Positions 407 to 18,378 of a stretch of 64,000 bases of DNA are shown here, piece after piece. Position 1 is the stretch's first letter; each line of letters begins with the position of its first letter. Below the pieces are notes generated by a model. The model was not told where the DNA came from, did not search any database, and saw nothing but the letters and a program-made list of their open reading frames with translations. A program made the translations under genes and the position numbers. Origin of the DNA: Flavobacteriales bacterium (GTDB lineage: Bacteria; Bacteroidota; Bacteroidia; Flavobacteriales_G; JALEGO01); assembly GCA_020628935.1 (NCBI GenBank), contig JAHDEG010000011.1, forward strand, positions 20,952 to 84,951. Direction: 5' to 3'.

Positions 407-2515
407 TTATACTTTAAGTGTAAAATAGAAGGTGGTTCCTTTATTTAAGCCTGATTTTAACCATACTTTTCCATTATGATCTTTAATTATTTTTTTACAA
501 GTAGCTAAACCAATACCCGTTCCCGAATACTCATCTCTTGTATTTAATCTCTGAAAAACCTCAAAAATTTTATCGTGATATTTCTCATCTATTCCTATTC
601 CATTATCACTAATACTAAATTGCCAAAAAGACTCTTTCACAGTACAGTCAATAGTAACCAACGGATTTTCAGATTCGTTATACTTTAAACCATTAGTTAT
701 AAAATTTTTGAACAAGAGATAGAGGTGAGATTTTGAAGCAACTATATCAGGTAAATCAGTAATTTCAATATTAGCATTTTTTTCAGTTAAAACTTGTTCT
801 AAATCAGCTTTAACATTTTGTAATAATTCGTTAGTATTAATTTTTTCTTTTTTAAGCTCACTATTATTAAATCTAGAATACTCTAAAATATCTGTAATGA
901 GAATCTTTAGTCTTGTTGCTGCATCTTTAGCAAAACTTAAAAACTGTAACCCCTTGTCATCAAGAACAGTGTTATACTTTAACTCAAAAATTTCTATTGT
1001 ACTCTGAATTGTTCCTAGAGGTTCTTGTAAATCGTGAGATATCATATAACCAAATTGCTCTAACTGTTTGTTACTCTTTTGAAGATTTGATATTGCTAAA
1101 TTACGTTCTTCATTTGCTTTTCTGAGTTCTTTTTCTGAGTTGACTTGATTGTTGATATTTTCGAACAGTACAACTGCACCAGAAGGTTTATTAGCCAAAT
1201 CTTTTAACTGAACAGCTCTAACATCTAAATAGGTAATATCATGAAACCCTGGACGTTTCAAAATTAATCTTGTTCTGACGTCTTGTTCACCGTTTAGGGC
1301 TCGAACTATTGGTAAATCAGTTTCTTTTAAAGGGGTAACTGCATCTAATTCGAACACTCCGAATTTACTAACCATTTCACCTTTGTTTACTCCTTCAATA
1401 TTGTCATCTGCGATTATTTCTCTTCCCGACTGATTTGATAATATGATATCACCTTTCATATCAGCAACCACAACTCCAAAGGGGGATTGCTGCAAAACTG
1501 CATCTAATAATTCTTTCTTGTCTCCCAGTTCCTTTTTCATAGCTTCCCTTTCTAATGCAGTACTTATCCATCCTCCTAATAAACGAAGTAAATTTATCTC
1601 CGACTTATTAAAAGCTACTCTAGTTGTATCACTTGAAAAATTGAGCGTTCCGTAGGTTTTACTATTTACTAAAAGTGGTATTCCAATATAAGACTCTAAC
1701 TTAAATGCTCCATAGCAAGGATGTGCATTGTAAACAGAATCTTTCATACTATCAATATGAATTAATTTATTCTCCTTTAATACTATATCACAATAGGTAT
1801 TACCAATATCAAAAGTTTCGCCACCAGTAAGTAAACCAGCTTCATGAAATGTATATTTAACAACATACTTATTGTTTTTAACCTCACTTATGATACCAAT
1901 TTTAAGGTTTAGCATTCTAGTGACCTCCTTCAATAAATGAATTACATCTTCGTCAAAATTGTTAGAAAAATTTGCGATCAAACCGTATAGCATTTTCAGC
2001 TGGCTATTGTTTCTTTCGATTTGAGCTAATAACTTTTTAACCTCTTCTTTCTCTTGAACTTCTTTGGCAAATTGTTCTGGTGATGGCACTTTTAATGCCT
2101 TAGGTAAAATTGGAACTAAAATTATTGCAGTTGCTATTGATATTAAACCTGTTATTAGCTTTAATATAGACTGCAGTCTGTAGGTAGGAGTCCAGATGGT
2201 CCAAATATCAATCATGTGTGTTAATCCACAAGAGATAATAAATGCAGCAAAAAGATAAAAAATACCCTTCAGCTTTAAATCTGTTCTTTTTCTTATAAAT
2301 ACAATCATCATGATTGGAATAACCATGTAAGCAATTGATGTTAATAAATCACCAACTACGGTAGTCCACAATACTTCTGGCCGCCAAAAATAGCAGTGCC
2401 CATGAGGCATAAAATCACTACTTTCAAAAAAGTTTTTGAAATAGTCAACAATGGGACTGTTAGTTGCTTCAAGTACTTCTTTGTGATTATGGCCTTCATG
2501 CTGTTTCATAAACAA
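407..2515 (-). CDS. Sensor histidine kinase with ethylene-receptor-like membrane domain, GAF and PAS domains
   Basis: N-terminal TM domain PHGHCYFWRPEVLW..GDLLTSIAYMVIPI...FIISCGLTHMIDIWTIW; GAF region, PAS region, H-box SHDLQEPL, N box NFITNGLKYNE, G boxes DNGIGID / GTGIGLATCKKI. Confidence 0.93.
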   Translation of the reverse strand: MFMKQHEGHNHKEVLEATNSPIVDYFKNFFESSDFMPHGHCYFWRPEVLWTTVVGDLLTSIAYMVIPIMMIVFIRKRTDLKLKGIFYLFAAFIISCGLTHMIDIWTIWTPTYRLQSILKLITGLISIATAIILVPILPKALKVPSPEQFAKEVQEKEEVKKLLAQIERNNSQLKMLYGLIANFSNNFDEDVIHLLKEVTRMLNLKIGIISEVKNNKYVVKYTFHEAGLLTGGETFDIGNTYCDIVLKENKLIHIDSMKDSVYNAHPCYGAFKLESYIGIPLLVNSKTYGTLNFSSDTTRVAFNKSEINLLRLLGGWISTALEREAMKKELGDKKELLDAVLQQSPFGVVVADMKGDIILSNQSGREIIADDNIEGVNKGEMVSKFGVFELDAVTPLKETDLPIVRALNGEQDVRTRLILKRPGFHDITYLDVRAVQLKDLANKPSGAVVLFENINNQVNSEKELRKANEERNLAISNLQKSNKQLEQFGYMISHDLQEPLGTIQSTIEIFELKYNTVLDDKGLQFLSFAKDAATRLKILITDILEYSRFNNSELKKEKINTNELLQNVKADLEQVLTEKNANIEITDLPDIVASKSHLYLLFKNFITNGLKYNESENPLVTIDCTVKESFWQFSISDNGIGIDEKYHDKIFEVFQRLNTRDEYSGTGIGLATCKKIIKDHNGKVWLKSGLNKGTTFYFTLKV

Positions 2516-2756: not shown

Positions 2757-3182
2757 ATGGCTATAGCTGACTTATATCAATCTAGTGAACATAAAAGTAA
2801 TTTATCACATTTCGCAGCTATAGTTAAACTTGCTTCGGTTGATGGTTCAATTAACGAATCAGAAGACAGCATAGTTAAGGGGTTTGCCAAAAAATTAGGT
2901 ATTACAGACCAAGAATACATAGATATAACCAGTGGAAATAAACATTACCCCATTCATACCCCAGTTGATGCAATGGATAGAAAACAGCACCTGTTAGATT
3001 TCTTTAAAATCATTTACAGCGATCACGTTTTAGATGAGCCTGAAATGAAAATGTTGATGAGTTATGCTGCAGGATTAGGCTATAACTCTGAACAAGCCAA
3101 CGAAATAGTTACTAAGTCCATCAAAATTTTTACTAATAAGTTTGATGTAGAGGAATATGACGCTATCCTTAAGATAGTTTAA
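2757..3182 (+). CDS. TerB family tellurite resistance-like protein
   Basis: 141 aa helical protein; HFAAIVKLASVDGSINESEDSIVKGFAKKLGI... typical TerB-like repeats with acidic motifs. Confidence 0.8.
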   Translation: MAIADLYQSSEHKSNLSHFAAIVKLASVDGSINESEDSIVKGFAKKLGITDQEYIDITSGNKHYPIHTPVDAMDRKQHLLDFFKIIYSDHVLDEPEMKMLMSYAAGLGYNSEQANEIVTKSIKIFTNKFDVEEYDAILKIV

Positions 3183-3392
3183 ACATTTCATACTTAAGGT
3201 TAACTCTGCTACTTCTAAACACAAAAGAATCACTCAAAAATACGTAAAGGCAGGTTATTAATTTCTTTTTAACATCAATAGTTCCTAGCTCTTTATAATT
3301 TGGAATACAAAAGCGCTGTAAAATTATTATTGAGGAAGGGATGAAAAAAAGCATTAACTATTAAATAATTAATACCTACTAAATTTTTAAAG

Positions 3393-3479
3393 CAGAGAGA
3401 GAGGGATTCGAACCCTCGGTACGCGTAAACGCACACACGCTTTCCAGGCGTGCTCCTTAAGCCACTCGGACACCTCTCT
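3393..3479 (-). tRNA. tRNA-Ser (anticodon GGA)
   Basis: Reverse strand: AGAGAGG acceptor pairs with TCTCTCT; T-arm GAGGGTTCGAATCCCTC; anticodon stem-loop ACGCCTGGAAAGCGT gives GGA; long variable arm (TGTGCGTTTACGCGTAC) as in class II tRNA. Confidence 0.96.
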
Positions 3480-16644: not shown

Positions 16645-18378
16645 ATGGATAGAACTATATTTATTTTTAGACTTTTTCTTATAGCAGGAACAGTATTACT
16701 GTTAAATCAGTCAATAAATGCACAAGCATTCATTACAACATGGAAAACAAATAATCCTGGTTCATCCAACAACACTTCTATTACTATACCTACAACTGGA
16801 GCAGGATACAATTATGATGTAGATTGGAACAATGACGGAACTTTTGACGAATTTGGTTTAACAGGTGATAAAACTCATGATTTTGGTGCCACAGGCACTT
16901 ATATTATTCGTATAAAGGGCACGTTTCCTCGAATATACTTTAATAATACTGGCGATAAATTGAAAATCATCAATATTGTTCAATGGGGTAATATAGAATG
17001 GGACAATATGAACAACGCATTTTATGGTTGCTCAAATTTAACTTGTACCGCTACAGATGTTGCTGATGTGCAAGGAGTAAATGATTTTTCTAATGCGTTT
17101 AACCTGTGCACTGTATTTAATGGAGACTTGAGTGGATGGTACATGGCAGATGCTTTGTACTTGGATGCAATGTTCCATAGTGCAACAGTATTTAACACAA
17201 ACGTTTCATCATGGCAAGTTGATAGGGTAAGAGATTTTTCAGATATGTTTAACAGCGCAATTTCATTCAACCAAAATATTAACACTTGGAATACTTCAAG
17301 CGCGTCAAACATGGGTGGAATGTTTGCAAACGCAGTTAATTTTAACCAACGTTTAGACGCCTGGAACACAAGTAGTGTATCAAATTTCAAAGGGATGTTT
17401 TTCCAAGCTATCGCATTCAATAAAGATATTGGAGGATGGGAGACTGGCAATGCAACAGTAATGGATTTAATGTTCTCCAATGCAATTGCTTTTAATCAAG
17501 ATATTAGTTCTTGGAGAACCAGAAGAGTCGAAAATATGTCTAGAATGTTTGAAGGAGCAACTGATTTCGATCAAAACCTTGGAGGCTGGGATATTTCAAA
17601 TATTCCTGCATATACATCCGCAAATACTTCGCTCGATAAAATGTTTGATAATTCTGGTATGTCTGTAACCAACTATGATAATACTATAATTGGTTGGGCA
17701 AACTTGGCCAATACTCCAAAAACGGCAGCTGTGAATTCTGGAGTTAGAGTTACCGCCGTGAATGTTAGTTACTGCAATTCAGTAGCGGAGCGAGCCGATT
17801 TAATATCCAATTTTGGCTGGACGATAAGTGGAGATGCTAATGATTGTACGGGACTTCCTATTGAACTAGCTCATTTTAATGTTAAGTTCGAAAATAACGT
17901 TACCAATATTTATTGGGAAACACTAAGTGAAATAAATAACGATTATTTCACTATCGAAAAATCTTCTGATGGTAACACATGGATAAACTTACTTAAAATT
18001 GATGGTGCAGGAAATTCAAATATAAGCTTAGAATATAAAGCTGTGGATGAAAATCCAAATTTAGGTCAGAACTATTACCGACTTAAACAAACCGATTTTG
18101 ATGGAACACACAGCTACTCAGAAATTAAAAGTATAAACTTTAATAATGAAGAAAATTTAGATTTCGTTCTCTTTCCTGTACCCTCAACCAATGAACTATT
18201 CATTCAAATAAATGATAGAACAGAAGAAAATATTAAAGTATTTAATTATTTAGGTGAAAATATAAATTTGAAGAGCACATCTAATAATAATGTAATTAGC
18301 CTAAATGTATCAAACTTGCCGCAGGGCGTGTATTACGTTGAATTAAATGGTGTAACAAAACCATTTGTAAAAAATTAA
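16645..18378 (+). CDS. BspA family (DUF285) repeat surface protein with T9SS sorting domain
   Basis: Repeats of the type MF..A..FNQ.I..WNTSS.SNM.GMF; C-terminal DFVLFPVPSTNELFIQI...LPQGVYYVELNGVTKPFVKN. Confidence 0.92.
   Translation: MDRTIFIFRLFLIAGTVLLLNQSINAQAFITTWKTNNPGSSNNTSITIPTTGAGYNYDVDWNNDGTFDEFGLTGDKTHDFGATGTYIIRIKGTFPRIYFNNTGDKLKIINIVQWGNIEWDNMNNAFYGCSNLTCTATDVADVQGVNDFSNAFNLCTVFNGDLSGWYMADALYLDAMFHSATVFNTNVSSWQVDRVRDFSDMFNSAISFNQNINTWNTSSASNMGGMFANAVNFNQRLDAWNTSSVSNFKGMFFQAIAFNKDIGGWETGNATVMDLMFSNAIAFNQDISSWRTRRVENMSRMFEGATDFDQNLGGWDISNIPAYTSANTSLDKMFDNSGMSVTNYDNTIIGWANLANTPKTAAVNSGVRVTAVNVSYCNSVAERADLISNFGWTISGDANDCTGLPIELAHFNVKFENNVTNIYWETLSEINNDYFTIEKSSDGNTWINLLKIDGAGNSNISLEYKAVDENPNLGQNYYRLKQTDFDGTHSYSEIKSINFNNEENLDFVLFPVPSTNELFIQINDRTEENIKVFNYLGENINLKSTSNNNVISLNVSNLPQGVYYVELNGVTKPFVKN

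Follow-up and report, generated by a model that had tools for sequence, protein, structure and literature searches.

An ethylene-receptor-type histidine kinase paired with a receiver-only response regulator in a Flavobacteriales genome

The 64,000-nucleotide stretch of Flavobacteriales DNA analyzed here (the window) encodes a sensor histidine kinase from the bacterial branch already known within the plant ethylene-receptor family, and as a member of that branch it is ordinary and well formed. Our best guess from its sequence is that it is a Cu(I)/ethylene-type two-component sensor, and we consider it probable that this ETR1_N-type kinase depends on Cu(I) and responds to ethylene or to another soft ligand of comparable size. 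In the literature searched, the few bacterial ethylene receptors that have been tested come from cyanobacteria and Azospirillum, and no binding data were found for any Bacteroidota ETR1_N member; the kinase and its receiver partner are a simple system in which to ask whether the Bacteroidota also sense ethylene.

The kinase open reading frame (ORF) is open from end to end on the reverse strand (407 to 2515; 702 aa counted from a TTG codon), and the more likely start is the ATG at 2509, two codons inside, which gives a protein of 700 aa (Table 1). Residue numbers are counted from the TTG unless ATG numbering is stated. Family assignment of the sensor domain rests on its Pfam match: the ethylene-receptor-type membrane sensor that an earlier note had proposed from the letters alone was recovered in a hidden Markov model search far beyond chance, PF25487 scoring 116.5 bits over a curated cut-off of 27 and covering profile positions 2 to 97 of 97. 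The proposed order of transmembrane (TM) sensor, GAF, possible PAS, and kinase holds for the TM, GAF, HisKA, and HATPase_c domains, with GAF confirmed after the membrane sensor, whereas the PAS match is weak and falls below its curated cut-off; from the sequence, a PAS domain between GAF and HisKA is plausible but not proven. A search for the kinase sub-family with NCBIfam returned only generic kinase-domain matches, all under curated cut-offs. HisKA and HATPase_c are intact and a response regulator is adjacent, as in two-component histidine kinases.

Table 1. Coordinates of the kinase locus in the window and of the ATPase fusion genes found in another Bacteroidota genus
Feature	Coordinates	Strand	Residues, match, or basis
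Receiver-only response regulator, 135 aa	1..404	(-)	Response_reg E=1.2e-14
Sensor histidine kinase gene, ETR1_N-GAF-(PAS)-HisKA-HATPase	407..2509	(-)	700 aa from ATG
HATPase_c catalytic domain	413..730	(-)	residues 596-701, PF02518 E=6.6e-25
HisKA phospho-acceptor domain	866..1063	(-)	residues 485-550, PF00512 E=3e-8
Weak PAS-like region	1148..1495	(-)	residues about 341-456, PF08448 (PAS_4) E=0.0017, under curated cut-off
GAF domain	1553..1936	(-)	residues 194-321, PF01590 E=1.8e-9
ETR1_N membrane sensor domain, three TM helices	2087..2374	(-)	residues 48-143, PF25487 E=6.7e-34
Lys119 = ETR1 Lys91, putative partner of Asp25	2159..2161	(-)	alignment and D25-K91 covariation
His100 = ETR1 His69, putative Cu(I) ligand	2216..2218	(-)	alignment to ETR1
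Cys96 = ETR1 Cys65, putative Cu(I) ligand	2228..2230	(-)	alignment to ETR1
Asp56 = ETR1 Asp25	2348..2350	(-)	alignment to ETR1
MPHGHCYFW motif just before TM1	2384..2410	(-)	residues 36-44
Small TerB-like gene	2757-3182		upstream of kinase, divergent
tRNA-Ser	3392-3479		beyond TerB-like gene
P-ATPase-ETR1_N-histidine kinase fusion, complete copy	L150:3440-8038	(+)	
P-ATPase-ETR1_N-histidine kinase fusion, complete copy	L192:4389-8987	(-)	
P-ATPase-ETR1_N-histidine kinase fusion, third copy	L191		ended by contig edge

An AlphaFold2 model agrees with hydropathy analysis on three long membrane helices (44 to 74, 81 to 106, and 110 to 139 in the model, ATG numbering), placing three TM helices before the cytosolic kinase as in ethylene receptors. 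The model, which covers residues 3 to 167, has a pLDDT of 92 to 98 across the three helices and the linker helix that follows; the GAF-PAS fold predicted from single sequence has a pLDDT of 35. No solved structure of an ETR1_N membrane domain was found by sequence search or fold search.

With residue numbering based on the ETR1 sequence, all seven ETR1 binding residues are in register: D25, Y32, I35, P36, I62, C65, and H69 correspond to D56, Y63, I66, P67, I93, C96, and H100. The ligand set and spacing read by eye in the earlier note were therefore correct, and the equivalent of Lys91 is present too. Ethylene binding by ETR1 requires seven conserved residues, D25, C65, and H69 among them, and K91 is named as well (PMC11819568); a passage of the same paper cites a predicted contact between D25 and K91 in ETR1. 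Covariation of these two positions among relatives is what would be expected if that contact also holds in bacteria: of the 113 domains that have D25, 110 carry Lys or Arg at position 91, as against 4 of the 9 that lack D25 (Fisher P = 3e-5; P = 0.002 when the fusion clade described below is counted once; apart from that clade, the test ignores kinship among domains). The bacterial motif MPHGxCYxW precedes TM1, and its Cys (HGxCYxW) is kept in 42 of the 43 relatives with letters there, in a set not selected by the motif. No kinase residues align at ETR1 C4 and C6, the Cys4/Cys6 pair of the disulfide-linked dimer in plant subfamily I; a single Cys elsewhere in the kinase N-terminus, Cys41, lies inside the bacterial motif.

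An intact seven-residue set is typical of the family and not special to the window kinase. One peptide pattern run against 84,980 species genomes gave 442 relatives, the best 80 of which span many phyla, and the tree includes Myxococcota, Pseudomonadota, Verrucomicrobiota, Cyanobacteriota, Bdellovibrionota, Acidobacteriota, Bacteroidota, and Eiseniibacteriota. All seven residues are found in 107 of 123 distinct domains (87%) and in 38 of the 46 domains whose selection did not involve the N-terminal motif, with Cys65 kept in 122 and His69 in 123 of the 123. Because the set is near-universal among relatives it is not distinctive, and its treatment as a rare feature was rejected by this census. 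The earlier note had held a full ligand set in a Bacteroidota protein to be notable, a view that does not survive: 15 of the 20 domains from the Bacteroidota genome sample have the same set. Its remark that the family is not new, with related domains in cyanobacteria and other bacteria, is borne out by evenly drawn samples, in which ETR1_N was detected in 53 of 194 genomes from the phylum of the cyanobacterium Stenomitos, in 16 of 200 Pseudomonadota (the phylum of Pseudomonas), and in 21 of 396 Bacteroidota (about 5%). Among 41 genomes of the same order, ETR1_N was above the cut-off in the window genome only.

Several relatives stood out in these surveys. The Bacteroidota genome of Flexithrix dorotheae (G439; L082/L102) encodes four ETR1_N domains, and the cyanobacterial sample includes a genome with as many as nine (G571). 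A degenerate ETR1_N kinase in genome G188 (L032; L155:2701-4371, minus strand) retains Asp25 and His69, lacks Tyr32, Pro36, Ile62, and Cys65, and is a candidate natural non-binding variant. Five loci form a long-branched Bacteroidota subgroup (L015, L017, L019, L023, and L025), four of them with ORFs of just about 390 to 420 aa; RWxCGxWT (PPRW or MPRW, then Cys) replaces MPHGxCY in L015, L019, L023, and L025.

In the tree, the window domain is found inside an all-Bacteroidota set of 19 rows (support 99/84) that contains Saprospiraceae and families f27 and f11 and adjoins Pontibacter and Adhaeribacter, although the alignment is short and the finer branching is therefore unsure. This position within a Bacteroidota clade indicates no recent cyanobacterial or plant origin, and horizontal gain from either source was not supported. 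The ETR1_N kinases of Pontibacter, Adhaeribacter, and Saprospiraceae share the supported clade, and those of Pontibacter and Saprospiraceae have 52 to 59% membrane-domain identity to the window domain. The kinases from these three groups are shorter (422 to 506 aa), whereas the window kinase has 700 aa with a GAF and a weak PAS; several Hymenobacteraceae ETR1_N loci have an adjacent small response regulator, as in the window.

The earlier note had overlooked the receiver-only response regulator downstream, whose start codon is 2 bp past the kinase stop; its last 4 bases are outside the window, and the gene is complete in L010:2949-3356. Downstream sequence was long enough to judge in 73 relatives; a receiver is fused to the kinase in 15 of these and encoded by a gene directly after it in 26. 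Across 80 loci, response regulators were the only enriched neighbors apart from small clusters of four or five. Copper genes as general neighbors were rejected, a P-type ATPase being present in 0 of 80 other loci within the flanks examined, and nothing in the kinase neighborhood points to ethylene. A Cu P-ATPase query gave no match, and thus no sign of a RAN1-like copper supply, in the window's own genome (G000); this genome is 82% complete and offered no positive control for the query, and an empty result of that kind is no evidence of absence. The sister genome G001 conserves ParC and its neighbors and has other signaling genes in place of the kinase-regulator pair, and a fixed gene order around the kinase was rejected on that evidence.

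The reading as a two-component sensor of the ethylene type has its closest experimental support in AzoEtr1/AzoRR-etr1 of Azospirillum brasilense: AzoEtr1, with the same seven residues and a 135-aa response regulator, shows saturable 14C-ethylene binding (PMC11819568). Like the window kinase, it combines an ETR1_N-type domain carrying a Lys91 equivalent with a cytosolic sensor module and a histidine kinase, and its adjacent regulator is receiver-only without an output domain; D35A and C75A were built as variants predicted to be non-binding (PMC11819568). AzoEtr1 has 525 aa and a PAS but no GAF, unlike the longer window protein, and it is a tested ethylene receptor of a plant-associated proteobacterium. 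In SynEtr1 of Synechocystis, too, a membrane domain of the ethylene-receptor type is joined to a histidine kinase with a response regulator as its signaling target, but SynEtr1 in addition has a photosensor module through which it responds to light, and it controls a small RNA (PMC11819568, PMC6508509); for the window kinase, in contrast, the GAF assignment is plain and the regulator is receiver-only. Arabidopsis ETR1 shares the seven residues and Lys91 in register and the TM-GAF-kinase order, but signaling in plants is mainly through CTR1, with no adjacent response regulator gene.

From the domains, binding residues, predicted helices, and kinase-regulator linkage described above, we infer the copper, the ligand, the direction of the response, and the output. 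Most likely, Cys96 and His100 of a dimeric three-helix membrane domain would coordinate Cu(I), and the Cu(I) would in turn hold ethylene or another soft ligand of similarly small size. Ligand binding would alter helix packing, an Asp56-Lys119 contact may couple the binding site to the output, and the signal would travel along the linker helix and across the GAF/PAS modules to change autophosphorylation of the HisKA histidine. The phosphate would then pass to the adjacent regulator, which would act through contacts with other proteins rather than by binding DNA.

Because the seven residues are near-invariant in the family, they cannot by themselves predict whether ethylene, copper, or another ligand is sensed. 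A gene from another Bacteroidota genus (g138) bears on the copper question: in its single ORF of 1532 aa, a Cu(I)-type P-ATPase is followed by ETR1_N, PAS, HisKA, and HATPase_c. It was found in 3 of the 164 genomes of its order, complete and 94% identical in two (G224 and G414) and cut by the contig end in the third (G872). The ATPase has the HMA motif MTCTNC, CPC at 449, DKTGT at 493, HP at 532, GDGIND at 705, and MAFSS at 792, a set that is the established signature of P1B-1 class Cu(I) pumps, and an extra hydrophobic segment (824 to 851) between ATPase and ETR1_N would fit a topology with the fusion kinase in the cytoplasm. Both complete copies stand after cydA/cydB-like genes, identified by eye, and before a receiver-only response regulator gene. 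Ethylene binding by the fusion's ETR1_N is doubtful, since the fusion lacks the N-terminal HGxC motif and has Asn in place of D25 and Asp in place of K91. We found no mention of such a fusion in the literature searched; it is a by-product of the analysis and more surprising than the window kinase. Plant ETR1 receives its copper from RAN1, a Cu P-ATPase that is a distinct protein (PMC13012798). The fusion bears on the hypothesis that ethylene perception arose from copper transport, which was described in 2023 as lacking further support (PMC10452086).

The fusion to a complete Cu(I) pump and that hypothesized origin (PMC10452086) would suit a domain that senses Cu(I) availability in the membrane or periplasm, with ethylene binding incidental or absent, as would the nearly invariant soft-metal Cys/His pair and the extracytoplasmic Cys of HGxCYxW, which could add a ligand. 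We regard this as unlikely: SynEtr1 and AzoEtr1, the family members characterized from bacteria, are ethylene receptors (PMC11819568), the other loci lack a P-type ATPase in their examined flanks, and with both D25 and K91 changed the fusion domain may work differently. A broader proposal, that the Bacteroidota ETR1_N sensors, among them the window's, are fundamentally sensors of Cu(I) loading tied to copper handling and that ethylene sensing is derived, strikes us as a long shot; if it were true, the g138 fusion would correspond, within one chain, to the RAN1-ETR1 pair of plants.

It is rather unlikely that the domain senses another ligand or state through the same metal site (for example O2, CO, NO, another alkene, or membrane redox) or mainly anchors sensing GAF/PAS modules. 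That the exact residues for ethylene binding hardly vary from phylum to phylum speaks for a conserved metal/ligand site and against a domain that is only an anchor, even though ETR1_N kinases carry varied cytosolic modules (GAF, PAS_3, PAS_4, receivers, or none) and are widespread in bacteria without an evident plant link. That the gene is a decayed or non-functional copy is hardly credible, for although it is absent from most of its order and other signaling genes replace it in the sister genus, its frame is open throughout, its domain signatures and seven residues are intact, and it is paired with a response regulator.

Elsewhere in the window, positions 16645-18378 on the plus strand encode a protein of 577 aa that carries a type IX secretion tail and DUF285 repeats, a repeat type named after Mycoplasma proteins.
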